From contig CM027378.1 of assembly GCA_015680905.1 (NCBI GenBank), forward strand, positions 71,081,501 through 71,145,500: DNA of 64,000 nucleotides, written 5' to 3'. The DNA is from Coptis chinensis. Taxonomy: Eukaryota; Streptophyta; Magnoliopsida; Ranunculales; Ranunculaceae. Positions 2,377 to 47,560 of this stretch are shown here, one piece after another (within the stretch, counting starts at the first letter, position 1; the number at the start of each line of letters is the position of its first letter). The notes beneath the pieces are model-generated. The model had not been told where the DNA came from. It saw only the letters and a program-made list of their open reading frames with translations, and ran no database searches. Both the position numbers and the translations under genes were made by a program.

Positions 2377-5300
2377 TTAGAGAAGAACTTCTGGGTATAC
2401 GACATTTGTAGTACAATTTCTTGCATTAGGTGGAAGAAAAACGGATATTCTTTTTGAAGAAGTACATCTGGACATGGCCACATAGAGTTGCCCATGACTG
2501 AAAACCGGTGTCCTCAAATCAATGCCAACATATTTCACTGACTGGCCTTGCGATTTATTAATTGTCATGGCATAAGCTAGTCGAACAGGGAATTGTCGCC
2601 TTAGTAGTTTGAAAGGCAACTCTGAATTTGAGGGAGCCAGAGATATTCTTGGGATGAGTACCGGATTTCCAGCTTTCTCTCCAGTTAAAATTTTGGCTTG
2701 AAGAACTTTACTCGCACATTGAAGCACCATAAGTCGTGTCCCATTGCAAAGGCCATTTTTAGGTGCTATGTTCCTGAGCAACATTATAGGGCATCCAGGT
2801 TTTAACTTGAGATTGAAAGGTGGTAAGCTAGAAGGGTCGAGGGAGTTTAGAAACTCGGTGGGATAGTAAGCCCCACTTGGATTATCAATATCATCTTCGA
2901 TGATTTTATCTGCAGCCAAATACTCGAGCGCTTCACCAAGGAACAAATTCAGTGCAACCTCATTAATTGCACTCACATCATCATTACGGGCAACAAGAAT
3001 AGTACGATCAGTTAAGACATTTGGAGACAGTGTGTCTATAACATCTAATTGGGGATAGACAGAGAAGATGAGTTCTTGGATATTGGTACACTTGCATATT
3101 CCATTCGGCAATTGTACGCATTCTTTAGGATTCGAACCAATCTAAATGAATCAAAGCAAAAAAATGAATTCATTAGTTTCTAAAATAGTTCGTTTATATA
3201 TGGAACTAATGGAGAAAAAAACATTCTAATTAGAAGGCATTAGTAGCACACCTGCAACAAAAAATCGGCGAATTCGACATTCTCGGACTCTGCCATTTCA
3301 AGCTGCATGTTTAGTACCAAGTGCAAAACTTCTAAATAACTCCAAAGGAAAGAGTGTCGTAGTGATGCACCAACAAATTGCTCTCTTTGGCCTAACGGTA
3401 TAACAGGCAATGTTTGTCGAAAATCACCACCAAGAACTGTAGTGATACCACCAAATATCTTCTTGTTTCTACAAATATCTTGAAGTGTTCTATCCACAGC
3501 CTCAACACAGTATCTATGTTGCATGGGCACCTCGTCACAAACAATTAGTTTTGTTTCTTTAAATAGGTCAGCAAGGTCAGAATGTTTAGTGAAGCCGCAA
3601 AAAGTGGTATCCATCACATCAATTGGAATTTTAAATGTATAATGAGCAATACGTCTATCAGACAATAACAAAGATGCAATTCCCGGTGATGCCACCATGA
3701 TGACAATAAGACCCATGCTGCGGCAGGCCTTTGCAATTGTATTATACAAAAAAGTTTTCCCTGTACCAGCTGCTCCATTTAAAAAGAAAAGTTTGCCCTT
3801 GTCACCAAATACTGAATCAGTCACAGTAGTGTAAGCATGAAGTTGTTCGTCATTAAGACGACTCACATCAACTGCAACCTCTTCTCCTATGCCTTCATGC
3901 TGAAGTTGGCATTGCTCCCAAATGAGCCTATTGCCAACAATTTTACTCCAATCCTCTTTTGGCTTTGGCATGGGTGGGAAATTTTCCAATGTCTTCCCAG
4001 ATTCTAAAAGGATTTGTTCCACCAGATATAAGTCATAATCTGTTATTTGCTCATCAGTTGGATCTAGGATGTCGTGCTTTGTTCGAAGCCAGTGTCCAAG
4101 ATCATCACATATACTCGATGCAAATTTGCTCCAAAGTAGATCTGGTCGTAACGGATGACACTCTAAAAGAATTACACAAAACAACCTCCGTAGTTGATAT
4201 CCAGTTTTCATTATCGCTACCTCTTCTAGGCATTGTATCCACTCATCATCAGCTTCCAACAGCCCACGGGCAATACATGCTTCTTTGTATGTGTTGTTCA
4301 CGGTATCACCGACTTTATAAAGATATGCAAAGGAGGTAGGCTCTTTTACAACAGTAAGTAGCAAGCGTAGATAAAACCACTCCCCGGCATTAGGGCTTGC
4401 AAAATACATCCTACCAATGGAAGGTCCCTGAGTCCTAGGAATCCACTCTTGAGAGTCTTTGTGGAAAACATAGTGTCGTGGAAATTCTTGATAGGTATAT
4501 GCTCGTGCATCACGGATCTTGACCTGGCGCTTTAAAAGAAAGCCGATCTTTGAAGTTTGGTCTCTGCCTCGGGCAAGAATTGCATCCATAGGCTCTTTGC
4601 TATTGAAAATTGAAAACAACCATATGCATACCTTCCAAATGAAGCGCCAATCGTTGGACACTTGGAAACTCTTTATGCATTGGATTTTGAAATAGATGTC
4701 ATGCAGCTTCTGTTGGTCTAATGTACCTTGCATCGATATATTGTTGAATCTCATCATTTGTTCTTGCCGCCACCACTGTTGCTTTGTCATAGCCTTTGTA
4801 AATGTACTTGTTAATATATTTAACAGCTTGACACAATGCACAAACTTTAACATTGATATGGCAGCCAAACATTTCAGACAGATATGCATTGTAGGGAACA
4901 ACATCTCCATTATCAACTTTAACTATTTTATTCTTCTTCTTCACAAAATATTTCTTGCCAGTGTCGCGCCTTCGACCATTTTTTATCCATAATTGTTTCC
5001 TCCACAAACTCTTTTAGATAGCCTTTGGTACATCGACCATTTTCCATACATGAAGCACTCGAATCTCGATCACCACAGGGGCCATGAACCATGCACTTCT
5101 TCACTGTTTCAAACAATGCAGGGTGGGTGTCAGGGTCTGGGAATTCAGCACATACAAATTTAACCACTTGCTTAATGTTTCGGATCTTGTCATCATGCGC
5201 AAGAAATAAAAGGCAATGCATGTGTGGAAGACCGCGCTTCTGAAATTCAATGGTATAGACATATACAACCACCCATCATTCTTCAAGATTTCTTTCATAA

Positions 5301-7491
5301 TTGCTTTTCGTTTCAGCTCGAATACCCGTGCAACTATTTCAGGCCGAAGTGTCAAAGTTTGGTGTTCCTTGAGCGCATCTTTAATTTCCTGCCAATTAGG
5401 GTTTGCAGTCACCGTAAGAAAAATATATGGGTGCTTATAGTGCCGGGTGATAGCCATTAAATCCTGAAAAATCTCGTACATGTGCCTTGGACTTCCAACA
5501 TGCGAGGAAGGCAAAATGAACCGTTGGCCAATTTGATCAAGACTTAATCCCTCAAGTGCAACATTTGTCAAGCACTTGTACACATCCGAACGGATGGTGT
5601 CTTGATTTAGTCTAATGTATCGCAAACGGTTCTGTTTATATACAGCCTAAGCATCAACCAAAAATTCATGCAACAATTTACACCCTAACAAGATGGATGA
5701 GTACTATGTGGGTCGTTCAAACAAACGGTAGGCGTAATACAATAATTGGGTGAGTCTTGCATTGCTTGGAGCATTTCTCTTGACGTCCCACAACTTTAAA
5801 TCAGGTGACCAACCCAAATCCCCAGAAGGAAACAGAAGAACATAATGCAAAGGCAAATAAGCGAGATGATATTCGCTTATCCATTCCAACTCATGCCCTC
5901 CTCTCAAGCGAAGTACAATATCACGCATGACATCAACCTTACTCCCATCTCCAGGCAATATTACTGCGATCTCATCAGTTGTCGGAAGATTGTACCTTCG
6001 TCTATCCGAATGCGGATCATAGTGTAGATGGACCGGAACATTGTTATTCTCAAAAGCATTTTCAGTTAAAACCTCAAATGCTTGCTTATAGATATCACAA
6101 AACTTGTGCGTCTGCAGAAGAGTTTTTTGTATAGTTTTCAACACTTCTCTTGACAAATTCGGGTTGCGATTGTGGCGGTGATCCAAAGCAGCTAGGGGAT
6201 CATAAATATAAAGTTGCGAAAACTTAGGTTCCATCCCCAGATCAGGCAACAATGAACTGATTTGGTGTTGCAACTCCCCATGAATAGTGATCGAATGAGG
6301 TTGGACCACGCCCATGTAACACACGATCGTTAAATTTGCAACCAAGACTGGTAAAGGCATTACACACATTGTATTGTCGAATCTACTCATGGAATAATCT
6401 TGCACGTTTATTAGATCCTTCGAATAAAGATTTAAGTGCCGGAGGTAGTGGAGAAAGAAGCGGTAGCTTAACTTTTCCTTGTAAACAGCAAGTTCCGAAT
6501 AAAGGTCGGTTGCTCCTTGATTTTGATAACTGTTCATCTTTCCAATGAAGGGCCAAACAAAATGGACAGAGAACATCCATCTTTCCCAAAAAGTGGCGGC
6601 GATTTGGAACAGGAAGCACATGGCCTCTATGAGGATTAAGAATTTCTTCTTCACTTTCATCAAATCCAGTCATATCATGATCACTGCAAAAATAGACATA
6701 TGATATATCACGCTTTACGGTATGTTGAAACCTAACAAAAGAGTGAGAATTTAAGCACTTGACTTACATAGTGTTATCCTCACAACTTTGCACTGTGATA
6801 TCTTCCGTGATAGATGAAGAGGACCCAACTTCGTACGTTGACCTCGTCTTCTTAAAGGAATCTGATATGTAATAAGATATAACGTCTTTTTCCCTCTGTC
6901 TCCGATTTTGTTATGCTATAGTCCTTTGATCGATATCTTTTTCTCTTCGAAGACATTGTGTAATAGATCTCCGATTAGGAGGTGCAATAGAGCTTTGACT
7001 GGGAGACACAATAGATAAGAGATTGGGAGGCACAGTAGATCTTCGATGATGAGAAATAACAGATAACACATTAGGAGTCACGGGAGATCGTCGATTAGGA
7101 GGCACAACAGATAACCTATTAAGAGCCGCGGGAGATCTTCGATTAGAAGGCACGACAGATAACCTATTAAGAGTAGCGGGAGATTTTTTATTAGGATGCA
7201 CAATAGATAACCTATTAGGAACCGCATTAGATCTTTGATTAGGAGGCACAACAATAGATAACCTATTCGGAGCCGCATTAGATATTCGATTAGGAGGCAC
7301 AACAAATAAAATATTGGGAGTCACAGTTGATCTTCGATTAGGAGGCACATATAGATTAGGAGGCACAACATTTCTTTGATGTGGAGGCACATATATACCA
7401 GATTGGGAGGTTCAATAGGATGACGTGCTATGGAATTGACTGGGTGAAGTAATGATTCCATTTCTCTCTCTTCCATGCGCTCTTTAACCAT
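2377..7491 (-). pseudogene. Helitron Rep/helicase gene, decayed
   Basis: In transposition order it holds a proposed start codon at 7491; a repetitive Pro/Asn/Arg-rich segment (about 7390-6911); a Helitron-like N-terminal domain (6663-5704, ending near the family motif HLAYLPLHYVLLFP); the HUH replication-initiator region with His-Met-His at about 5224-5213; a two-tyrosine motif [10 protein letters not shown] at about 4827-4797; and a PIF1-type helicase. Its Walker A motif GAAGTGKT is near 3777-3755, with DE, GGDFRQ and a C-terminal TINKSQGQS block that continues to 2377. An intron at 3251-3142 (GT/AG) separates LLQ from IGSNP and keeps the frame. The reading frame is interrupted in at least four places: stops between 5704 and 5625, and shifts near 4930, 4700 and 7380. 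The protein is therefore unlikely to be functional, although nearly every family motif survives. It would nick DNA and drive rolling-circle transposition. Confidence 0.92.
6955..7390 (-). repeat. in-frame tandem repeat, about 57-bp period
   Basis: Repeats of roughly 57 bases encode variants of a 19-residue unit such as NRLSVVPPNRRSPAALN on the minus strand, about seven or eight copies with drift. The frame stays open across the array but has no ATG of its own in that frame. The ATG at 7491 is in an adjacent frame, so a shift or missed splice near 7380 is likely. Low-complexity N-terminal extensions occur in some Helitron proteins; a specific function is not known to me. Confidence 0.65.
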
Positions 7492-9316: not shown

Positions 9317-9669
9317 CCTACACCTATTACAGAAGGCCTTAGACTTGGGCCTTTAGATGGTATAAGTGGAGACAATATCAACATCTGGTTGCAAGTGGCA
9401 TCGGGCCCACTTACTTAATGTTGAGGCTTTTTGAATAAAAACCCAACACATAGGCTTTGGGCATGGGCCGAAACAAAATAGTTTTTCTAATTTTGGTAAA
9501 GAAAAAAGGCGTCGTGTGTAGCATCTAGAATCAACCGCATGCCCGAAATTCCCACAAAATATCAAAACCGAAAACAAGTAGAACGCACCAGATCAAAACC
9601 CAGAGTCAACAAACGCGTTTCGTCCTTTCTGGGTGGGACCCACATAAAACATGCATCGAAATAAGTAAT
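9317..9669 (+). promoter_or_regulatory. displaced former upstream region of the LRR gene
   Basis: Before the MULE inserted, this stretch ran directly into 16598, just upstream of the LRR start codon. It includes a W-box on the minus strand (AGTCAA at 9604-9609, read as TTGACT), the core site of WRKY factors. It also contains the right part of the older repeat (9317-9490). Whether it ever was the working promoter is inference from position. Confidence 0.45.
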
Positions 9670-9922
9670 GAGTGATTTTTTGCTCCCAGCGTTGGTTCCT
9701 CCAAGCGCTCCAAGGGATATATCAGCCATACACGTTTCATTTTTTCCATCCAAAAAAAGATGTTACAGCTGTATAAAATCTTCAAAATTTTGGATTTTAC
9801 TTGTTTGTCCCTCATAATTAAAAAGGAAATAAAAAGGAAAAATATAAAGAAAAAAAGAAAGTGGAATAAACCAACGTGTGTTCCTTCTTATACGGCAGTT
9901 TCTTCAACTTCTTACTGCAAAA
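9670..9922 (+). repeat. MULE terminal inverted repeat, left
   Basis: Matches the reverse complement of 16336-16588 nearly base for base. It contains an AT-rich tract and TATAAA-like words that could serve as a promoter reading into the element, as MULE terminal repeats often do. Confidence 0.93.
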
Positions 9923-10512
9923 ACCAGTTACTCTTTTCAATTAATTAACAACCACACTTATCTAGTGACTAGATGCGTAGGTTCCCTAATCCACAATTAT
10001 CCAACAGTAACAAAGATCTGATGTTGTTAGGCACCTCATTCAATGCTTGAAAATCACCAGACCTTTGATTCATACTAGCTAATTTATTTCCTTTGTTATT
10101 GAAGCTGGTCAAATGAAGCCAAACATGATATAGTACTTGAGGATAAGATTTCAGTAAGTTTCCTTGTCTTCATCCTTGAGCCACGTAGGTTAAAAGCGAA
10201 AAAAGAAAAAATATAGTCAATATACTGAAACTACAGTATACCTAAACGTGCTAACCGCAGTTGTTGGTCCTCTGGGTGTGAGTAGAAGATTACAATTTTG
10301 TTTATAATTTTGCATACTGTTTCTAATTGTGCTAGTGATGGTGGTTGAGGACTTGGGGTCCATGGGTCTAATGAGTTAGCATATTTGATATGATATTTAG
10401 TTTTTATGGGAGTTGATCATCTTCTCAGATATTATTTTTCTATATTAATTACCCTGGGCTTTGTTTTTCCGTCAATTTGTTGCTTTATCTATTTCTTTTT
10501 GAATGACGACAG

Positions 10513-10578
10513 GGTGATGCTGACAGTGCACTTGATCGACTTTGGCAGAAGAAGAAGGTCGAAGTTCAGCAGCAGTAG
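10513..10578 (+). pseudogene. captured C-terminal exon, host gene not recognised
   Basis: A polypyrimidine tract and AG at 10511-10512 precede an open stretch encoding GDADSALDRLWQKKKVEV, three glutamines and a stop at 10576-10578. The charged, well-composed peptide with a clean acceptor, followed by several hundred bases that look like a 3' untranslated region, suggests a transduplicated gene end. It lies on the opposite strand to the transposase. I do not recognise the parent family. Confidence 0.45.
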
Positions 10579-11679
10579 AGATGCTGTTTAGCATTTGAAG
10601 GTCTTCTGTAGGGAGAGTAATTTAGAACTTAGAACCCTTTTGGTATTATTTTTGGTGAACCTAATAGTTTTTAATCGATGTTTGTCTTAACACTTGGGAT
10701 ACCTGAATCTACATGTTAGAATGAACTAATGAAGTGTGTCAACTGCTTTCTACTTCTGCAATGTTAACCAGCTTTACTTAATTTCCATCCTCATTGGGCG
10801 ACATCTGAGTCTAAATTATTATTTGATGACTTAAAGAGATATTTAGATACTTGTCTGTATGCCCTATGTAGGATTGTATTTGTGTATATATATTTCAAGA
10901 TGATACCTGCGCTTGTAGATGCTACTGTAAGTTGTACCGTAGTTGTGAAATAATTCCTACACTGTCGTCACTCACAACACTCTGTTTGGTTAAGGCAGTT
11001 GGCACATTGGGGTGGGAGACGATTTTTCTTCATCCTCCAAAAAATCAAATACTGATTTTGAGGAAATGAAGTGGTAGGTTTATCAGCTTCAGAGAGATTT
11101 ATGATCCACTGCCTGCAGTGTTGATTCAGTTGAAAAAGAAGAGCGACTGAATGAGAGTTTTTAACGTAATTATGGCGGGGGTGTAGCCCTCTCTTTGGAT
11201 CCAAGGTCCAGAAGTCCAAGTTTGCAGTCAGCTAGTTACCATGGCCATAGGAATAGATAGGCAGGGAGTTGTCAACTTCTATGCATTATGTTTTTGATCA
11301 TGCACATCAAGAAACATGTTCTCTGGTAATGTCTGTTTGACTAATTCCTCAGACACCAAAATTGAGAGGAAATGGTAAAGCCATACCGAATAGATAGAAT
11401 GCTGCACTTGAAATCCCAAATACTGAAGCAACAGAACTTCCCAATACCTAAAATCCCAAAATTCAGACCCCTCTTCTTTGAATCTGTCTTTGAATTGTAA
11501 TAATTTAAGAACACAAGTTAGAGTGAAAACACTCCCTTTACATGTTCACTGAATTTTATACAAACGACAAATAAAAACAAAATGTATGTAAGTTTTCTCA
11601 TTTAACTACAAATCAAGACTTCCTACATAAATCAAATATAAAAACAAGTACTATTTTATTTTTCTTTCCAACAATGATG
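10579..11679. other. MULE interior, non-coding
   Basis: Probably 3' untranslated or intergenic sequence carried along with the exon at 10513, followed by AT-rich filler up to the OTU-like region. No motif-bearing open frame was seen. Confidence 0.4.
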
Positions 11680-12827
11680 CACTACTCTAGATAAACGTCT
11701 TGTAGCTTTTGCATATTGGTCGGAACCGATCCATCCCACCTCGCCCAATTTTTCTTGCGAACAGATTTCCACATTGCTTTGCTTCGGCAATCTAACAAGC
11801 CCAACCTCGCCAAACCGGAGGTAGAGGAGCAATATCTTTTAGCACAACCGGCACAAAATGTGTTCCTTTGTTTATGTGGCAAATGACGATTATCCAAACA
11901 ATTCTTCTGGACTGTCCTCGGGAAGTACGTAACACATAATTTTGGTGGTGCTATAGTGACAAAAGCAACATTAAAAGCACTTTATGACTAAGGAACCCAT
12001 GTCCGGTAGATCAAGCCATTCTTTTTCATTCATTGTAAAAGACTTGGTACACTCTAAGTTTCTTTTGTGGTTTTCAAACACGTCATGACCGTACAACTTT
12101 GTATAGTAATCCGCATATTGCATCAGCTCTTTCAACATAAGCCCCCTTATGGTCTTCCATGCTAAATCATCTCAGATATCCTAACAAGCTATGGATCTAT
12201 AACCACAATGCCCATCCGGAGTTACCTCGCCCAATGACTCAATCATATCACAAATCAAAGGATTAAAGTCACCCAAAACATTTTCCCACTTATGCTTGAG
12301 GTCTTCATTTTTTAGAATTATTTCCGGCCTAGTATTTTTTTTTCTACTTCTCTTCACCTTAATTTTTTTTGTTGCTTCCCTTTCCATGTCGTCATTTTTG
12401 CTGAAATCAAGCCTTCTACGTGGTAATCCCTGCATAAAGTGTACATTTTGTTTATAATTATTATGATTCTATGATATGATAAACTTGTGACCGAAAAAAT
12501 TGAAGTATCTAAAGCTGTAGTACTAGTTTTTGACATACTAATAGCATGACTCTAACTAGATTATAGTTATTTTAGATGGTACCTGTCTAAACTCAGTATC
12601 ATTGATCATGGAATTAAAGCTGCTTGATTGTGGTTGTCCTCCATGGTTCATGGAAACCTGCTTTGTGCCATTCAAACTTTAGTATAATTTCATTTGGTAC
12701 AAAAAAGAGTGTATAAATTAAGTTATGGAATTGAATCACCTGTTGCAATAGTTGTTGAAAACTGAATGTAGAAGTAGTTGCAAAGCGATTTACAGAGCCG
12801 ACTCCATTTTCTAGAGCACTAATTCCC
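11680..12827 (-). pseudogene. OTU cysteine-protease-like segment of the MULE
   Basis: Three exons in phase can be read on the minus strand: about 12827-12740 (ending FQQLLQQ), 12657-12583 (starting VSMNHGG) and 12429 onward (starting GLPRRRLDF). The last contains a basic KKIKVKRSRKK stretch and then PDGHCGYRSIA, the OTU signature holding the catalytic Asp and Cys. Downstream, after frame breaks, a THFVPV word in another frame near 11850 resembles the segment around the OTU catalytic histidine. OTU-type proteases accompany transposases in some plant MULEs. Stops follow directly after the Cys block (about 12180), so the domain looks broken. Confidence 0.65.
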
Positions 12828-13676
12828 TATCACAATTCACAAATACGCTTTAGCAAGACAAATAAGAATGTACACATAACCACTTTGTAAATGAAAATTG
12901 ATCGCTTGCATTATCTACGTGAAAGAAAACCAAGCAGTGCATGGCTATTTAGTTTAACATCACAAGTCAGACTGTCAGAGTCCATAGAATAAAAGAGATT
13001 TTTTTTTTTTAAAAACATGGGGGTTACTACTTACTATCACAATGCAGCACATAAACTATTTGTACTATGCTCTATACTTTCTAAACCCATAAAACACCTC
13101 CTGATCACAGTTCCTGTACCTACTTTCATACAGTTTCTTCTTTACATCTGTTTAAATTGCACTCGATGACAAATCAAACTCTAGCAAACACAAAAAAATA
13201 CGGTAACATGTGTGTATTCATTTGGTAAATGTTGTGATGTTTTGATATCAAGTTGTATTTGCTGTTCAAACAATGACTCCGTGGTTGTTTCCATATACAA
13301 AACTATTTGAATTACTGGTTATAGCCTTTTGTGCCATGATCAGGATGACCAAGGAACTGATCACGGTGAAGTGTTTCACTGTTTGAAAGGGTAATTTATG
13401 GATGTTATATCAGTGTTCATATTTTATCTTTTTTACTTTCTGACTAAAAGAACCACAATAAGATCCAATCAAGGCATAAAACGTCATACGGAAAACCAAG
13501 TAGATTAATTCATAGAGAACCAACAAAAAAAACAAAGCTACTGATTTCTTTTGTAAAAGAGAATGTTAATTCAAACTAAACTTCACAAGTAAACCCACCA
13601 GCAAACAATAAAATGACAAACCAAATGACATGATGACTTTCAGACAAATAAACCATTTAACTTCTCAAATACTCAC

Positions 13677-13941
13677 CTGGCTCAACGATGCCACAGGAGG
13701 TAAAGGGCCGGGGCAGTGTTGCGCCCTGTAGGCAATGTCGAGGCTGACCTCTGAGCGGGGATACTAAGCTGTTCATATAGAGCCATTTTGTTCCTTGGAG
13801 GTGCCCTTGGTCCTCCTTTCTCTGTATCATTAACATGAAGCCTAGGAAACCATACTTGAGTGGATTGAAGAGCAACTTCTTCAGCAGTGTTAAAATGTCT
13901 ATTTTCCTCGTCACTTGTAGCTTGAACAGTATTCTTGTCAC
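13677..13941 (-). pseudogene. ELF3: EARLY FLOWERING 3 fragment inside the MULE
   Basis: One frame on the minus strand reads [13 protein letters not shown] and [17 protein letters not shown] over 13849-13748, which is the highly conserved N-terminal block of ELF3, a scaffold of the plant circadian evening complex. Upstream residues ([13 protein letters not shown]) are not ELF3-like to my eye. A splice donor CAG/GTGAGT ends the exon at 13677. The ELF3 frame closes on a stop just before the donor; the frame ending [10 protein letters not shown] runs in phase into the next exon at 12827, so a small indel separates the two. This is either a captured gene piece or an exon fused to the element's gene. 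Only the N-terminal block is present, so it is not a complete ELF3. Confidence 0.85.
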
Positions 13942-14027
13942 CTTGTTGTCATAAAATAAAGAGATGATAAGGCCACTAAATTGTTAATTAATTAAAATAT
14001 CACATCATTAACCAAATGTAAATAATA

Positions 14028-16187
14028 TTAAGACAAACCTTTCCCGGTTCTTTTACTCTTCTTCGATTTCGTTTCCAACACGCCTTTAATTCGAGCCTTG
14101 GGACCAAAACGTTTCTTGCGTACTGGATTCCTTAAGGGTGGAATGTCACCTGATTGGCTTCTAGTAAAGTTTTCCTCAATCTGCTTTGCAACATTATGTG
14201 AGCTTCCATGTGTATCTCCTTCACTGTCAGAAAAGAACTCTAGTGTTGAAATTGTGCGAAGCATTTCAGATATTGCAAAATCCCTTCTTCTCTTTGACCT
14301 TGCTCCTTGTCCAACCAGTGTTTGTGCACAATGGGATATTTCACTAAACCGTAGTGAGAATTCGGGATCTAAGTCATCTCGAATCACTTCCCCGTTAGAG
14401 TCATACACAATATTGGTTGCAGCTTCCATTGTCCATCTCTTTAAATAATATACTGAAGGGAGACTAGACACCTCTAACTCAAGGAATAATTTCAGTATGT
14501 GTTTACACAAAATCCCCTGAAATTCAAACTTTTTGCAACTGCAGCTCACTAGTTGTGTAGAATCCGTGTAAGTAACTGTCCGCTTCCTAGTATTTGCTTT
14601 TCCAACCAACCTTACTGAGTAAGATCTTGTCTCACCATCAACACCAAGTAGTTCTAACTTTAAAGCTAGACTTTTGATGCATTGCTCCTGAAAGATCTTA
14701 AATATATTTCTTGTGTACTTCTCCGATGCTTCACGCTCAACCACCCAAAGAGTAGACAAAGTAGGTTTTGTTTTCTTGTTATTAGTATCAGCTAACCTTT
14801 CTTTCAAACGTCTCCTATTCAAAGCCTTGTCAAACTGACTTACAAATTCTCGAAGAATAAGATTTCCCGAGAAAAATTTCTTCAAAAATTTGTTAATGCT
14901 CTCACTTCTCTGCGTAGTTGTCATACCAGCACAAAAATGCTCGTGACCATAAACTTGTGCCCATTTAGTCTTCGTCTTATACAAATTCTTCAGCCATTCA
15001 TTTGCTTGCACGCCATAGTCAGAAAGTAACTTTTTCCAACTTTCTTCAAATTCATCAACTTGTTTCGGGGTTATATATACACCTTCTAAAATCATTTGCA
15101 AAACCTGTTGGGTATTTTTCAAGACATACTTTAAGCACTTAGCCGCATTGAGATATATATGCCATAAACAAAATCTATGGTGGGTGTTAGGGAACACTGT
15201 GCTAATAGCATTGCCAATTGCAGGCGCTTGATCTGTAAAAATGGTTTCTGGGTGCTTTCCTCCCATTGCTTCTAGAAATGTCTTGAACAACCATTCAAAA
15301 GATGGTATTGTTTCATCCGCAAGCAAACCACATCCGAAAAGAACAGTTTGCCCATGATGGTTTACTCCGACCAGTGGTGCACATATCATATTGTAACCAT
15401 TTGTCCTAAACGTTGTATCGAAAGACATCACATCTCCAAAATTATGGTAGTCCGACCTTGACTTCGCATCAGCAATGAAAACTCTACAAAGCCTATTATG
15501 CTCATCCCTTTTAAGCTTGTAGAAAAAGAACTTATTGGCTTCTTCCTTCTTTGACAAGTAATCTAATAGGCATTGTGCATCACCTTCTTTCCACGGACTC
15601 AAGGCGTGTTCTTGAAATAACATTATATAAATCTGATTCTAAAAATTCAAATATTCAGCCCCACTAGCCTCGGTTGCTCAAATAACCCATAATATCGTTG
15701 GTTCCAATTCACGAGGAGCTCATATTTTGTATGAGGTCTTTTTTGTGAAAGATCTATTCTCTGGGTGAGACCGCAACATGTGTGCATTAGTTGGATCCAC
15801 AAGAGGATGATTGTGCTCTTCCACAAATTCAGTCACAACATACTTCTTATTATCGTTCAATCTTATCATCATCATTGCCTTGCATCCACTCCTCCTTTCA
15901 TCTCTTTTTTTAACTGGAGTTGTCTTCTGTTTGTAAAACCCTTCCCAAGAGCAAGTCAAATCTCTTCGCATTATTTCACGAGCCGCATTTCGATACATCG
16001 AGTTCTTCCTAACACTAAATCCGACAGTCTTTGCATATCTGTTATAGAAATTATATGCCTCCATATCACTATCCAATAACATCCCAACTACAGGAATTTG
16101 ATTATCTGAATATTTGTTATACTCTCGAAAGTCCACACCCACTTCCTCATTACTTTCTGCATAATCCATAACACCATCATTTTCCAT
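14028..16187 (-). pseudogene. FAR1/FHY3-like MULE transposase
   Basis: The first part (16187 to 15720) carries the FAR1 DNA-binding zinc finger, with Cys in CSWEGF and SGCKAMM and the His pair in EEHNHPL. ATG at 16187 is preferred because codons further upstream come from the terminal repeat. The second part (15623 to 14028, 531 residues) is the catalytic core: Asp in SFDTTFRTN, Asp in IFTDQAPAIG, CLWHIYLNA, and a SWIM zinc finger CSCKKFEFQGILCKHIL near residues 355-371. A basic tail ends the frame at 14028. Between 15720 and 15600 related sequence (YLSN, LYNVISRTRL) is present in shifted frames with stops, so the gene is broken there or the intron is mis-spliced. Host FAR1 and FHY3 are domesticated relatives, but the flanking repeats show this copy is a transposon. 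Confidence 0.93.
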
Positions 16188-16335
16188 CGAGTATAAGGAT
16201 AAACGAGAGAGCTGAGCAATGTGTGTGTGTATTTTTTTTTTTTTTTTAGAGAGTACGTGAAGAAGACTTAAGAGGTTCGAGGGACGGTTTTTTTTTTTGT
16301 TCCAATTTCCAACTCTTTCTGTTTTCTCCATCGTG

Positions 16336-16588
16336 TTTTGCGGTAAGAAGTTGAAGATACTGCCGTATAAGAAGAAACACACGTTGGTTTATTCCACTTT
16401 CCTTTTTTCTTTATATTTTTCCTTTTTATTTCCTTTTTAATTATGAGGGACAAACAAGTAAAATCCAAAATTTTGAAGATTTTATACAGCTGTAACATCT
16501 TTTTTTGGATGGAAAAAATGAAACGTGTATGGCTGATATATCCCTTGGAGCGCTTGGAGGAACCAACGCTGGGAGCAAAAAATCACTC
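16336..16588 (-). repeat. MULE terminal inverted repeat, right
   Basis: Inverted partner of 9670-9922. It now forms most of the sequence immediately upstream of the LRR gene, so any promoter activity it has outward could influence that gene. Confidence 0.93.
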
Positions 16589-16628
16589 ATAAGTAATAAC
16601 TCATCCCCACTCTTCCTCGTCACCTTTG

Positions 16629-16633
16629 TTGAC
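16629..16633 (+). promoter_or_regulatory. W-box core upstream of LRR gene
   Basis: TTGAC followed by C, 89 bases before the start codon. It is the WRKY-binding core, in keeping with the pathogen-responsive expression reported for LRR1-type genes. Single short site; occurrence by chance is possible. Confidence 0.3.
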
Positions 16634-16721
16634 CACTTCCAAAAACCCTTTGGAGGTCTCTCATAACTCATCGAAAACACTTTCCTCTCTTTTGCTTCTT
16701 GTTCCAAACGTTACTATTAAA

Positions 16722-18538
16722 ATGGCTCTTCAACTGCTTGTTTCTTCACTTGCTTTACTTGTTTGTATCTGTCCAACTATCTCCACCAACTCAGAAGGTA
16801 ATCATTCTATCTATATGTCTTATGCCTTTTTGTTTATAAATTTGAGCTTTTTGTTGTTGGTAGGGAATGCTTTGCATACTTTGAGAACAAGACTATCTGA
16901 TCCAAATAATGTTCTTCAAAGCTGGGATCCTACACTAGTTAATCCTTGCACTTGGTTTCATGTTACCTGTGATTCTAGCAACCATGTTATCAGACTGTAT
17001 GTGCTTACTTCTCTCTCTCTCGATCAGCTTCATCTTTTTTTTGTTTTTTTATATTTCTCACCATTTCTCATGTTGTTTAGGGACTTGGGTAATGCTAATA
17101 TCTCTGGTTCTTTGGGTCCCGAGCTTGGAGAACTCAAACATCTCCAATACTTGTAAGTGTCATGTGTAGATAAATTTAGCTTCCGCATTAGTAGTATTGC
17201 TTAATTAAATAATTGAAATTTGGGAATTTAATTGGTTTCAGGGAGTTATACAGAAATAATATTAAGGGGAAGATTCCTAAGGAATTGGGTAAATTGAAGA
17301 ATTTAATTAGCATGGATTTGTATGAAAACGCGCTCCAAGGAACTATTCCGAAATCTTTGGCTAAATTGAAGTCACTCAAGTTTCTGTAAGTTTTAGTTGG
17401 AGAAGGGTTTTGATTTGTTGTGTTATTAGATTTTTATGTGCTTGTAAACTTACTGTTATTTTGTATTTTGATGGCATAGGCGGTTGAACAATAACAAACT
17501 CACAGGATCAATTCCAAGAGAACTAGCAAAGCTTTCAAACCTCAAAGTCTTGTAAGAATTAAAAATTATGATTAAAATTGATGTAAACTACTTTCGATAG
17601 GACTGCCTTGTGAATTTTTTCACTTATTATTATTTTGTTTTAATGTTGCAGTGATGTTTCCAATAACGATCTTTGTGGAACAATTCCAATTGATGGGCCA
17701 TTTGGAAGCTTTACCCGTGAAAGGTACTCATCCTCTGCTTCTGCTAATTGTTGCTTATTTGCTCTGACCTGTAACATTTTAGTTTGCATTTATCAGTTTG
17801 CCCTTCTTATTCTCCTTCAATATGGTAGTCAGTTTAAGGTTAATATCGAAGCCTAGACTTTGATCCCAAAATCTGAATCAATGATATTAAGAAACAATTT
17901 AAGATTGCAGAACTATTTAGGAAGAAGAAAATACACCCTGAAGGTTCATAAGATGGTTCTCTCCGGCTAATAACTACATTATCCTATAAGATTATAATTC
18001 ACGTAAATGTCCTGTATCTGCAATAATATAGGCCAAATGTGGGAGGTTTTAAGATCTCAATGCTCTCATGTCTACCTGAATTCTAACAATTCCATTCTAA
18101 ATGGAATGAGTAATATAGACCCAAAATCCTGTTAAGTGAGAAAATGCTCTATATGGAAGTGTAGTATGCACTTCAACAAATTTATCATTTGCATATATTT
18201 CTGTTATGATTGATTTTTTGGAGCTATCATACATCGATACATGTAGGTATTCACGCATGCTCTCATGTCTACACATAGTTGTTCCTGTATATGTTCTTTT
18301 ACATATTAGACTTTTTATAATGGTATTAAGAATGCTTATATTCATGTTTTGCCCTGCATCTGAATTTCCTAAGAATGCATCTTCAAGTGCATGTGAACTT
18401 CTATTTCAGTCTCTTAAATTATCTTATGGAGATCCAATTGAGCAACGGTTTCTTTGTTTGTAATTCAGTTATGAAAACAATGGCAGACTCAATGGCCCCG
18501 AGCTCCAAGGACTTGTACCGTATGATTTTGGATGTTGA
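16722..18538 (+). CDS. LRR1: secreted leucine-rich-repeat protein, LRR1 type
   Basis: Seven exons: 16722-16797, 16864-16996, 17081-17152, 17242-17385, 17480-17551, 17652-17723 and 18469-18538, all with GT/AG borders, giving 212 residues. A hydrophobic signal peptide (about residues 1-22) is followed by an N-terminal LRR cap ([14 protein letters not shown], then WDP and the cysteines in [10 protein letters not shown]). Five plant-type repeats follow, LxxLxLxxNxLxGxIP. Exons 3, 5 and 6 are each exactly 72 nt and exon 4 is 144 nt, so introns fall one per 24-residue repeat. It ends YDFGC without a transmembrane helix or kinase. This matches the LRR1/LRR2 group, which resembles the ectodomain of SERK receptors and is secreted or apoplastic, with roles in defence reported for relatives. 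The ATG at 16722 is chosen because the signal peptide starts there. A 6.9-kb MULE ends 133 bp upstream. Confidence 0.96.
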
Positions 18539-44043: not shown

Positions 44044-45700
44044 CTAGTTCAGGTCATCAACTGGAAAATCTGATAAGAAATCAGCAATGACTTGGCCCTT
44101 CTGAGAGGTTCTTGGGGTGAACTCAATGTAGTGTTCACCAAGTTCTTCTTCCCATACTGCCATGCGAGTTGTCTTGTTGGCTTTAAGAAGGATCTTCTTT
44201 AATGGCAGGTCGGTGAGCACTTTGATTGGATATGTTTGGAAGTAGTGCCTGAACTTTCTTGCTAAATAAAGTAGTGTCAGTACTGCCTTTTCAATGTGGG
44301 AGTAGTTCTTCTCAGCTGGCAACAATGTCTTGCTTGTGAAGTAGATCAGTTTCTCTACATTCTGTTCCTTTTTGAAGAGAACTGAATTGATAGCGAAGTC
44401 AAACACAACTAAGTACAGCCCCAACATTTCACCATCTATTGGTTTTGCCAACACAGGTGGTGTTGTCAAATAGTCCTTGAGAGTAGAAAACACTTGGTGG
44501 CATTGCTCGTTCCATGAGAATTGTTCACCCTTCTTGAGAATTTGTAGGAAAGGTTGGCATTTGTTTGATGCTCTCGATATGAATTGGTTTAGAGTTGCTA
44601 CCATTCCTGACAGTTTATGTATTTGCTTCTTTGTTTTAGGGTCGGGCATGTCCAAGAAAGCTCGAATCTGATCTGGGTTTGCTTCTATCCCACGTTGTGA
44701 GATCTGATAACCCAGAAATTTCCCAGAGGACGCTCCAAAGAGGCATTTTTCGGGGTTAAGTTTTATCTGAGTTCGTCGAAGTCTAGAGAACGCTTGTGTG
44801 AGATAATCTAAGTGGTCTCCAACTTTCTTGTTTTTGATGACCATGTCGTCTATGTAGACTTCCATGGTGTCACCTAACATGTCTTAGAACATATTGGTGA
44901 CGGGTCACTGGTAGGTCGCTCCAGCGTTCTTGAGGTCAAACGGGAAGACGTTGTAACAGTAAATTCCTTGCTCTGTCATGAATGAGGTTTTCTCTTGGTC
45001 TTCTTCTGCTAGTGGGATTTGGTTGTAGCCACTGTAGACATCCATGAATGACAAGAGCTCGTGACCACAGGTTTGGTCCACAAGTCGGTCGATTCTTGGT
45101 AAGGGGAAGCTATCCTTAGGAGTTTCTAGATTTAGGTTGGTAAAGTCCACGCAAAGGCGAACTGTGCCATTTTTTTTTGGGACTACTACTATGTTAGCGA
45201 CCCATTCAGGGTAATCAACCTTCCTAATGAAGCCAACTTTTTTGAGATTTTCGACCTCTTCATTGATTGCTTTATGAAATCTAAGAGATAACTTTCGAGG
45301 TCGTTGGCGAACTGGTTTAGCGTTTGGGTTAACATTTAACTTATGGCATGCAACATTAGGATCAATTCTAGGCACATTGATGTACGACCAAGTAAAAATA
45401 TATTTATTTAATATTAAAAAGCTTACAAGTTGTGCCTTGAGAGTAGGATCAAAGTTAGTTCCTACATAAACGAACTTGGGGTCATCCTCGGTTCCTAGGT
45501 TAACCTTTTCCTTCATCTCGGTTTGAGCAGCCGTCTCAGTGGGCTGAGCGACCTCTGGGGTCTTGGTATCTTGCGGTGTATCCTTGACCGGAAGGGGTGG
45601 GGCGACCTCTGGGGTCTGAGCTTCTGGAGGGGCATTTTTTATTGAGCCCCCAATGTTTTCCTTTGTCAGTTCGCTTTGGGGGGACTTGGTCAGAGTCTTG
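44044..45700 (-). other. reverse transcriptase and RNase H region (fossil)
   Basis: Reverse transcriptase motifs include VVPKKNGTVRLCVDFTNLN upstream and the catalytic VYIDDMV block near 44850. RNase H-like sequence follows toward 44044. The family assignment to Ty3/gypsy is secure. Broken. Confidence 0.92.
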
Positions 45701-45867
45701 ACCCCAGAGATGAAGTCTTCTACTAGCTTGGTTTTGGCGATCTCTTCCTTATTTTTGAGTGAAGCCCCAGCAAGCTTGTTGACTGACAGGATCTGGTTGC
45801 AATTGTAGGCATCGAGCTGGTTGCTTTTGAGCTCCATCATGCCTCTGGGGCCAGGAAAGCGTAAAAC

Positions 45868-46224
45868 CTAATGGAGTGTTGATGGCACTGCTTGCATCTT
45901 GTGGTTCCAACGACGTCCTAAAATAACAGTATATGATGAGTTAACATCTAGAATGCTAAAGCGCGTGTTGATGCTGATTTTATCTTCGCGTGACCCGACT
46001 GAGACAGGTAGAATTATGTCTCTAATTGGGTCAGCTCGAGATCTATTGAAGCCATAGAGGGGGGCTATTGGATCAATCATAACCGACTTTGGTAAGCTCA
46101 TCTCTTTGATAGTTTGGTAGAACAAAATATCACATGAGCTGCCTGGGTCGATCAGGGCGCGCTTTACTATCCAGTTACTAATTTTGACATGGACCACCAG
46201 AGCGTCGTTATGCGGGAGGCACAC
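45868..46224 (-). other. aspartic protease-like region (fossil)
   Basis: ALIDPGSSCDILF resembles the D-S/T-G region of retroelement aspartic proteases, and a later VILGR block fits the family's second conserved segment. Part of the gypsy element. Confidence 0.75.
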
Positions 46225-46699
46225 CTTGTTGAGGTTGGCCTCAGTGAAAGTGATGTCTCCTGAGTTGCGGGCAGTTACGTGTAGGGCAAGACCCGCTTGT
46301 GAGGAGAACTGATAGATCGACTTATTGTAGGGTGCCTACACGTCTCCTTTTCTCCCTTGTGGACGTGATAGAGTCGTCCTGGAAGGTGATCATGTTGATC
46401 ATTCTGTTGTTATCTATGTTAGATGAGTGTTGACAACGATCATGACGAGATCAGTCCATAGAGCGTCCTCGAGCGTGGGAGCAATCTTGGTTGTGGTTGT
46501 ATGGAGGAGTTCGGCTTTGCTCTTTGCGGGCTATGAGCTTGTGGCACAGGTCACCATCGGCTATATCAATATAGTGCTTGATATGGCCTGCCTCAATGAG
46601 GTCTTGGAGGTAGTGCTTGAGTATGCGGCATTCGTTGGTCTCATGACACTTTGCTTTGTGGAAAGCGCAGTATGGCTTTCCTGGTGTGTCTTATGGCCG

Positions 46700-47560
46700 T
46701 TTTACCTCAAGTCGGTAATAAGCCGCTGTCTTTATCTTCTCCAGTATGTAACTTGGATATCTTGTCAGAACAGCGAACTTGCGCTTCGTGTGCATCCTGG
46801 TACCATATCGACTTCTGTCCTTGTGGTTTGGGTCGCTTTTTGGAGGACGAGGCAGAGTCTGAGATTAATGCGAATTCCTCTTGTTCACCTTCGTGATCTA
46901 AAGCTTCCTGTAGCTTTATATACTTGTACACGTGAGTGTACAAGTCTTCTAGTTTTGCAGGACGCTCCTTCATGAGCGACTTATATAGCCAGGTATTTTT
47001 AGGGATTGCCTTGGTGAATGCCAAGGTTGCAAAGGACTCTTGGAGGTCGCTTTCTATAGACAGCAAGTTTGTCTTGAATCGCCCAAAGAAGGAGTGGATT
47101 GACTTGTCTTTCTTCTGAGACAGCAAGAAGAGTGAGTCAACGTCGGTTTTCTTACGTCTGTTGTGGATGTAATGATTAGCGAACTGATCGGTTAGCTTCT
47201 CAAAGCTATCGATGGAGTTCGGTTCTAGTGAGTAGAACTAGTCAAGAGCTCTTTCTTTCAGACTTGCATGAAACAAGCGGCATTGCAAGTAGTCGAACTA
47301 TTGTGCACTATAGAGTGCGAGGCTCTGGATATAGCGAGCAACGTGTTGACCGGGACACATATTGCCATCATATATTGCGAAGCGCGGCTGAATGAAATCG
47401 TGCAGGGAGGGTTTACTGAGTACCTCCGGTGTGAATGGGGATGCTCGATAAGTTTTCAGCATCTTCTGGACGATTTGAGTGGCATCCTTCTTCACAGTAC
47501 TCTGGTCAATTCGCTGGGACAGCTCGTTGATTTGCTGGTTCACTTCGTTAATCCTCAGCG
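46700..47560 (-). other. gag-like region (fossil)
   Basis: Minus-strand sequence with FFGRFKTNLLSIE and SFATLAFTKAI resembles the retrotransposon gag core. A short Cys-containing stretch is expected downstream. Broken. Confidence 0.7.

Follow-up and report, generated by a model that had tools for sequence, protein, structure and literature searches.

A Mutator-like element with an ELF3 fragment, probably captured by gap filling and later spread by transposition

The window, i.e. the whole 64-kb stretch of DNA that was analysed, contains a Mutator-like element (MULE) that holds a fragment of the host clock gene ELF3. We observed the donor gene, the empty and filled sites, the junctions and the distinct target duplications of the filled copies, and from these we infer a gene model, a break and its repair. 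A transposase-bearing Mutator-like element would have been broken internally, in the 109-bp intron of its transposase gene, and the gap would have been filled by copying about 920 bp of the host ELF3 gene (C3:2.51 Mb), presumably through template switching during repair, with short microhomology as a guide. The filled element would then have transposed at least twice, and the ELF3 piece would now mostly be removed within an enlarged intron of about 1030 bp, as a passenger. We assign to this account, taken as a whole, a probability of about 0.8. Gene capture by such transposons is well known; in this case the event can be followed at single-base resolution, since donor, empty siblings and filled copies, all of which were found, coexist in one genome, and the capture from host ELF3 that an earlier note on this DNA had proposed is thereby borne out.

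The element and its ELF3 fragment

The element shows the features of a MULE, namely long terminal inverted repeats, a 9-bp target site duplication and a MULE transposase domain (Table 1). The earlier note had placed the ELF3 block between a FAR1-like transposase and an OTU segment on the same strand. The upstream part of this description is correct, as Pfam recognised the FAR1 and MULE/SWIM domains upstream of the block on its strand. The OTU part, instead, is a resemblance of motif (DGHCGYRSIA, which we take to be OTU-like): Pfam gave no OTU match at E ≤ 0.01 in three frames of the window or at E ≤ 1 in the 259-aa frame of sibling L014, and a PDB sequence search with the segment returned one match (E = 0.7, a Cas9 chain), which was taken as chance. 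Interruptions of the transposase frames were seen in each of the nine copies read (the three carriers of the ELF3 insert and six siblings lacking it), a count in which introns and decay are pooled. The native small exon is clean in siblings L014, L016 and L017 and frame-shifted in L018 and L019, and in L015 it was read from an upstream duplicate match. Four siblings were checked for 9-bp target duplications, which were perfect in L014 and L015 and not in L016 and L018.

Table 1. Features of the Mutator-like element and of the captured ELF3 fragment in the window.
Feature	Position	Strand	Remarks
Mutator-like element, 6919 bp, GAG...CTC ends	9670..16588	-	terminal inverted repeats ~253 bp, ~98%
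Left copy of 9-bp target site duplication ATAAGTAAT	9661..9669	.	perfect
Right copy of 9-bp target site duplication ATAAGTAAT	16589..16597	.	perfect
Frame with FAR1 DNA-binding domain PF03101	15720..16388	-	Pfam E=3.4e-25
Frame with MULE transposase PF10551 and SWIM zinc finger PF04434	14028..15638	-	Pfam E=2.4e-31; 4.7e-08
Native small transposase exon (inferred gene model)	13856..13941	-	open, phase 0 in 3/3 carriers, 3/6 siblings
Native splice donor GT, CAA/GTATGG	13854..13855	-	intact despite insertion
Captured ELF3 fragment, ~920 bp	12931..13850	-	left microhomology GTTT, right TG
Captured share of ELF3 coding exon 1, from FPRLHVND to exon end	13677..13850	-	1-base deletion in window copy
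In-frame TGA, window copy	13682..13684	-	frame open at same place in L009, L010
ELF3 exon-1 donor CAG/GTGAGT	13671..13679	-	sequence reading
Captured share of ELF3 intron 1, ~750 bp	12931..13676	-	donor comparison
Native splice acceptor GTGATAG	12827..12833	-	intact despite insertion
Next native exon GISALENGVGSVNRFATTSTFSFQQLLQQ, phase 0	12740..12826	-	3' end inferred
Frame with presumably OTU-like motif DGHCGYRSIA	12181..12468	-	motif only
Second acquired segment	9947..11361	-	97% identity with the likely donor, L027 (C5:75.889 Mb)

The 34-codon block read from the translation of the minus strand at 13849-13748, which the earlier note had identified as the N-terminal block of ELF3, is real. 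The published ELF3 N-terminal motif GGP(R/K)(P/A)PPRNKMA, as it appears in the available part of the source (PMC3270035), occurs a single time in the 64-kb window, at 13816-13781 on the minus strand. When a stretch of Arabidopsis ELF3 was used as the tblastn query, the block was matched with E = 1.7e-18, as compared to E = 0.97 for the runner-up in the window; the reversed window, used as control, gave no real ELF3 match (best E = 1.6). The middle and C-terminal blocks of ELF3 gave no meaningful E-value anywhere in the window by tblastn, and therefore the piece is a fragment and not an ELF3 gene. It comprises most of ELF3 coding exon 1, the splice donor and about 750 bp of intron 1. The proper splice donor described in the earlier note is indeed present (CAG/GTGAGT, 13679-13671), but the exon end lies 71 bp beyond the 34-codon block. 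In the window copy, a 1-base deletion shifts the ELF3 frame and leads to a TGA (13684-13682) that lies five bases short of the exon end. With the 34-residue peptide as query, a PDB sequence search gave no match and a literature search found no paper.

As a separate observation, the element contains a second acquired segment (9947-11361), also present in L009 and L010, that replaces about 3.2 kb of sibling L014. TTTT is common to sibling and donor at its left junction, and a few filler bases are found at the right one.

Donor gene, empty sites and filled sites

The assembly (935.6 Mb, 116 contigs) was searched with positions 13677-13941, and at least 13 places were matched. Three of these hold both halves of the query and six the transposase half alone; the remaining four match the ELF3 half, at 88-98% in three cases and at 77% in one. 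At the best ELF3-half locus, L011 (C3:2.51 Mb), the N-terminal block of ELF3 is followed by the middle and then the C-terminal one. Over about 927 bp, inclusive of about 750 bp of intron 1, identity to L011 is 97.7% for the window, 98.6% for L009 and 98.7% for L010, and therefore the sequence comparison identifies L011 as the donor or the donor's living descendant. Two other loci considered as donors, L012 and L013, were rejected: they match the element of the window at 95.7% and 90.6% over shorter stretches, as compared to 97.7% over the whole insert for L011. The locus at 77% belongs to another gene of ELF3 type, whose blocks, of all three kinds, are spread over L020 and L031.

A search for other MULE copies with the same exon found two beyond the window (the copies L009 and L010), at C4:23.27 Mb and C2:15.66 Mb. 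The three carriers lie at unrelated sites, each with its own perfect 9-bp target duplication (ATAAGTAAT, AGCATTTAG and AATAGCTAC), and no similarity was found when their flanks, 1.2-2 kb each, were compared. A segmental duplication is ruled out by these unrelated flanks and distinct target duplications. In all six siblings examined (L014-L019) the ELF3 insert is absent and the sequence is continuous through the site; the native intron measures 109 bp in five of them and 111 bp in one, with respect to 1028-1031 bp in the carriers. The intron borders of the siblings are CAA/GTATGG ... GTGATAG/GGA (GTATAG in L015 and L016), and the insert sits 5-9 bp inside the native 109-bp transposase intron. 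A further copy of the family, L033, spans only the first ~1150 bases and the element ends, and is thus uninformative about the insertion site.

These comparisons also dispose of a reading in which the block has always been part of the MULE family and its likeness to ELF3 is no more than a resemblance. All six siblings examined are without it, and a gene with all three ELF3 blocks matches it at nucleotide level, at 97.7-98.7% with the intron sequence included; the native-block reading is refuted by both results and retains hardly any probability.

Nine substitution positions set all three carriers apart from the donor. With L012 and L013 taken as outgroups, the change was assigned to the element branch at six of them and to the host branch at the other three, with less certainty at position 129, where L013 has a third base. 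Since these nine positions and the insert junctions are common to all carriers, the sequences point to one recent capture, and since the carriers are found at unrelated sites with distinct target duplications, transposition followed it. For dating, two substitution rates per site and year were assumed, 6.5e-9 and 1.5e-8. The pairwise divergence of the carriers (K = 0.0064-0.0081) corresponds at these rates, which may not be those of the host, to 0.2-0.6 million years.

Junctions of the insert

The junctions can be read almost unaltered, because the insert differs from the donor by only 1-2% and the donor, six empty sites and three filled sites coexist. At the start of the insert GTTT, and at its end TG, are common to the empty site and the donor (microhomology of 4 and 2 bp, respectively). 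In 200,000 random placements on L014 and L011, the probability was P = 0.022 for a microhomology of 4 bp or more, P = 0.18 for one of 2 bp or more and P = 0.004 for the two combined, a joint value that is nominal, the breakpoints having been placed after being seen; the right-hand 2-bp microhomology alone is unremarkable. The ELF3 insert starts within an exon and stops within an intron, and the terminal repeat of this MULE family, searched with up to two mismatches in the donor locus and in the stretch upstream of it (L032), was not found. For these reasons the insert does not look as if transposition, or the fusion of neighbouring elements, had brought it in. The junctions rather favour internal gap filling over the joining of neighbouring elements, and template switching during the repair of an internal break appears to fit best. 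The hexamer TGGTTT of the empty site flanks the insert at either end, the strict overlap being GTTT, and this 4-6 bp duplication could also have been left by an insertion into a staggered break.

Splicing and small RNAs

Considering that the native splice donor and acceptor both survive, the simplest fate of the captured piece would be removal as part of the intron, so that it would be mostly a passenger. The consensus of splice donors is MAG/GTRAGT. Against this consensus, the ELF3 donor CAG/GTGAGT matches at 9 of 9 positions and the native donor CAA/GTATGG at 6 of 9, and for this reason the native donor may lose to the ELF3 donor. If it did, the product would be a fusion of the transposase with 60 additional residues that include the ELF3 N-terminal block. 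In agreement with such an exonised fusion, the ELF3 exon shares the reading frame of the transposase exon and stays open up to the ELF3 donor in L009 and L010, with phase 0 on both sides; the carriers retain GTGAGT at a place where today's donor gene reads GTGAAT; and the splicing of captured exons into transcripts is documented for a soybean CACTA element (PMC1947982, available part). On the other hand, the window copy is frame-shifted and stopped, so that from its sequence it would be unable to encode the full fusion. The agreement of register and phase could be chance, being expected by our reckoning about once in nine cases or oftener. Moreover, carriers and today's host exon differ by two amino acids, one of them on the element branch, which is too few for a selection test, and the interruption of the transposase frames in 9 of 9 copies, in which introns were not separated, also speaks against the fusion. 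On balance we consider the fusion unlikely. Still more doubtful is an extension of it, in which the ELF3 exon would serve as an alternative ending of the transposase exon and the proteins of L009 and L010 would interact with the partners of ELF3 or protect the element from being silenced, the latter because silencing by the host would hit ELF3.

A different consequence would follow if the silenced element yielded siRNAs that also match exon 1 of host ELF3 and lower its expression, and we judge this rather improbable. Of the 196 21-mers of host ELF3 exon 1, 104 are found exactly in the window and 113 in each of L009 and L010; none of the locus's 21-mers occurs in the three siblings tested (out of six), and elements that capture genes are reviewed as reservoirs of siRNAs against their donors in the available part of PMC13317346. 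However, the ELF3 piece is in sense orientation, and an inverted copy of it was looked for inside the element and none was found. The shared 21-mers thus indicate a capacity for small-RNA cross-talk and are not evidence of it. The case is a natural experiment in which two splice donors compete, and one that could tell whether an exon taken from a clock gene acts back on the gene it came from.

The earlier note had also connected the capture with the role of FHY3 and FAR1 in the clock. These are domesticated MULE transposases that act in light and clock signalling, and ELF3 is not mentioned in the available part of the source (PMC13306707). A search of the genome with the FAR1 end gave at least 150 matches (150 of 150 scored, among 1245 first-look candidates). 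Given this abundance of FAR1-type sequences, the presence of ELF3 in a FAR1-type element needs no functional link; nothing found ties the choice of donor to them, and the connection looks coincidental.

Comparison with known systems

The case is a transduplication of the ordinary sort, though documented unusually well, and the element involved still bears transposase domains. According to the available text of PMC8903248 and PMC13317346, the Pack-MULEs of rice and other plants similarly enclose a piece of a host gene within MULE terminal inverted repeats, show target duplications and are multiplied by transposition; they are however defined as non-autonomous, whereas the present element, which does hold a captured host gene fragment inside its repeats, also has FAR1 and MULE transposase domains, in interrupted frames. 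In Tgm-Express1, a soybean CACTA element with five gene fragments, the captured exons likewise retain their splice sites and can enter transcripts as additional exons (PMC1947982, in part); there splicing was shown by RT-PCR, whereas the ELF3 exon described here lies in the element's own transposase intron and its splicing is a prediction. The animal Pack-TIRs explained by gap-filling or FoSTeST models (PMC8277862) share the internal breakpoint, the microhomology at the junctions and the multicopy spread after capture, and differ in that a plant MULE is involved here, for which the donor as well as empty and filled sites are at hand; in its available part, that paper leaves open whether these models apply to plant Pack-MULEs. 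The non-TIR MULEs KIU/Kaonashi, which carry Ulp1, are comparable for a captured host domain in a MULE with its own genes, but their Ulp1 is ancient and conserved, while the ELF3 piece is recent, present in three copies of which one is broken, and a putative passenger (PMC13317346, in part). How plant MULEs acquire unlinked gene pieces is still called unsettled in the available parts of PMC13317346, PMC3310237 and PMC8277862. Our literature search found no report of ELF3 captured by a transposon, which is weak evidence of absence; the one paper naming both ELF3 and Pack-MULE does so in unrelated passages of its available text.

Other ELF3 fragments and neighbouring sequences

A different ELF3 5' fragment (about L011 4373-5585 and 4373-5615) is present in dispersed copies of about 5 kb, at 4372-5522 of L012 and 4557-5753 of L013. 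L013 also contains a beta-galactosidase galactose-binding fragment (PF21467, E = 9e-12), and the two loci therefore look like the product of a separate multi-gene capture. Eight further loci match the 5' part of ELF3 at 74-88%, four of which were retrieved (L034, L035, L036 and L037). These diverged copies of the ELF3 5' untranslated region fall into two groups with different ends; in L034 and L037 they reach into the first codons, ending near the same place.

Short elements with terminal repeats as in the ELF3-carrying MULE were found at L028 4257-5594, L029 3401-5303 and L030 3285-5643. L029 and L030 hold other parts of the C5 locus, L028 holds the right part, from e5814 onwards, of the ELF3-carrying type, and in L030 the terminal repeats are repeated at one end.

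Within the window, the edge of the MULE lies about 130 bp upstream (16589-16724) of the start codon, ATG at 16722, of a gene with leucine-rich repeats (LRRNT_2), and because of this proximity its terminal repeat could affect the promoter of that gene. Minus-strand frames at 2377-6669 contain a PIF1-like helicase domain (PF05970, E = 4.8e-65 for 3240-4922), and this region is possibly a Helitron. Retrotransposon-like frames are found at 44044-47237, with a reverse transcriptase (PF00078) in 44905-45867.
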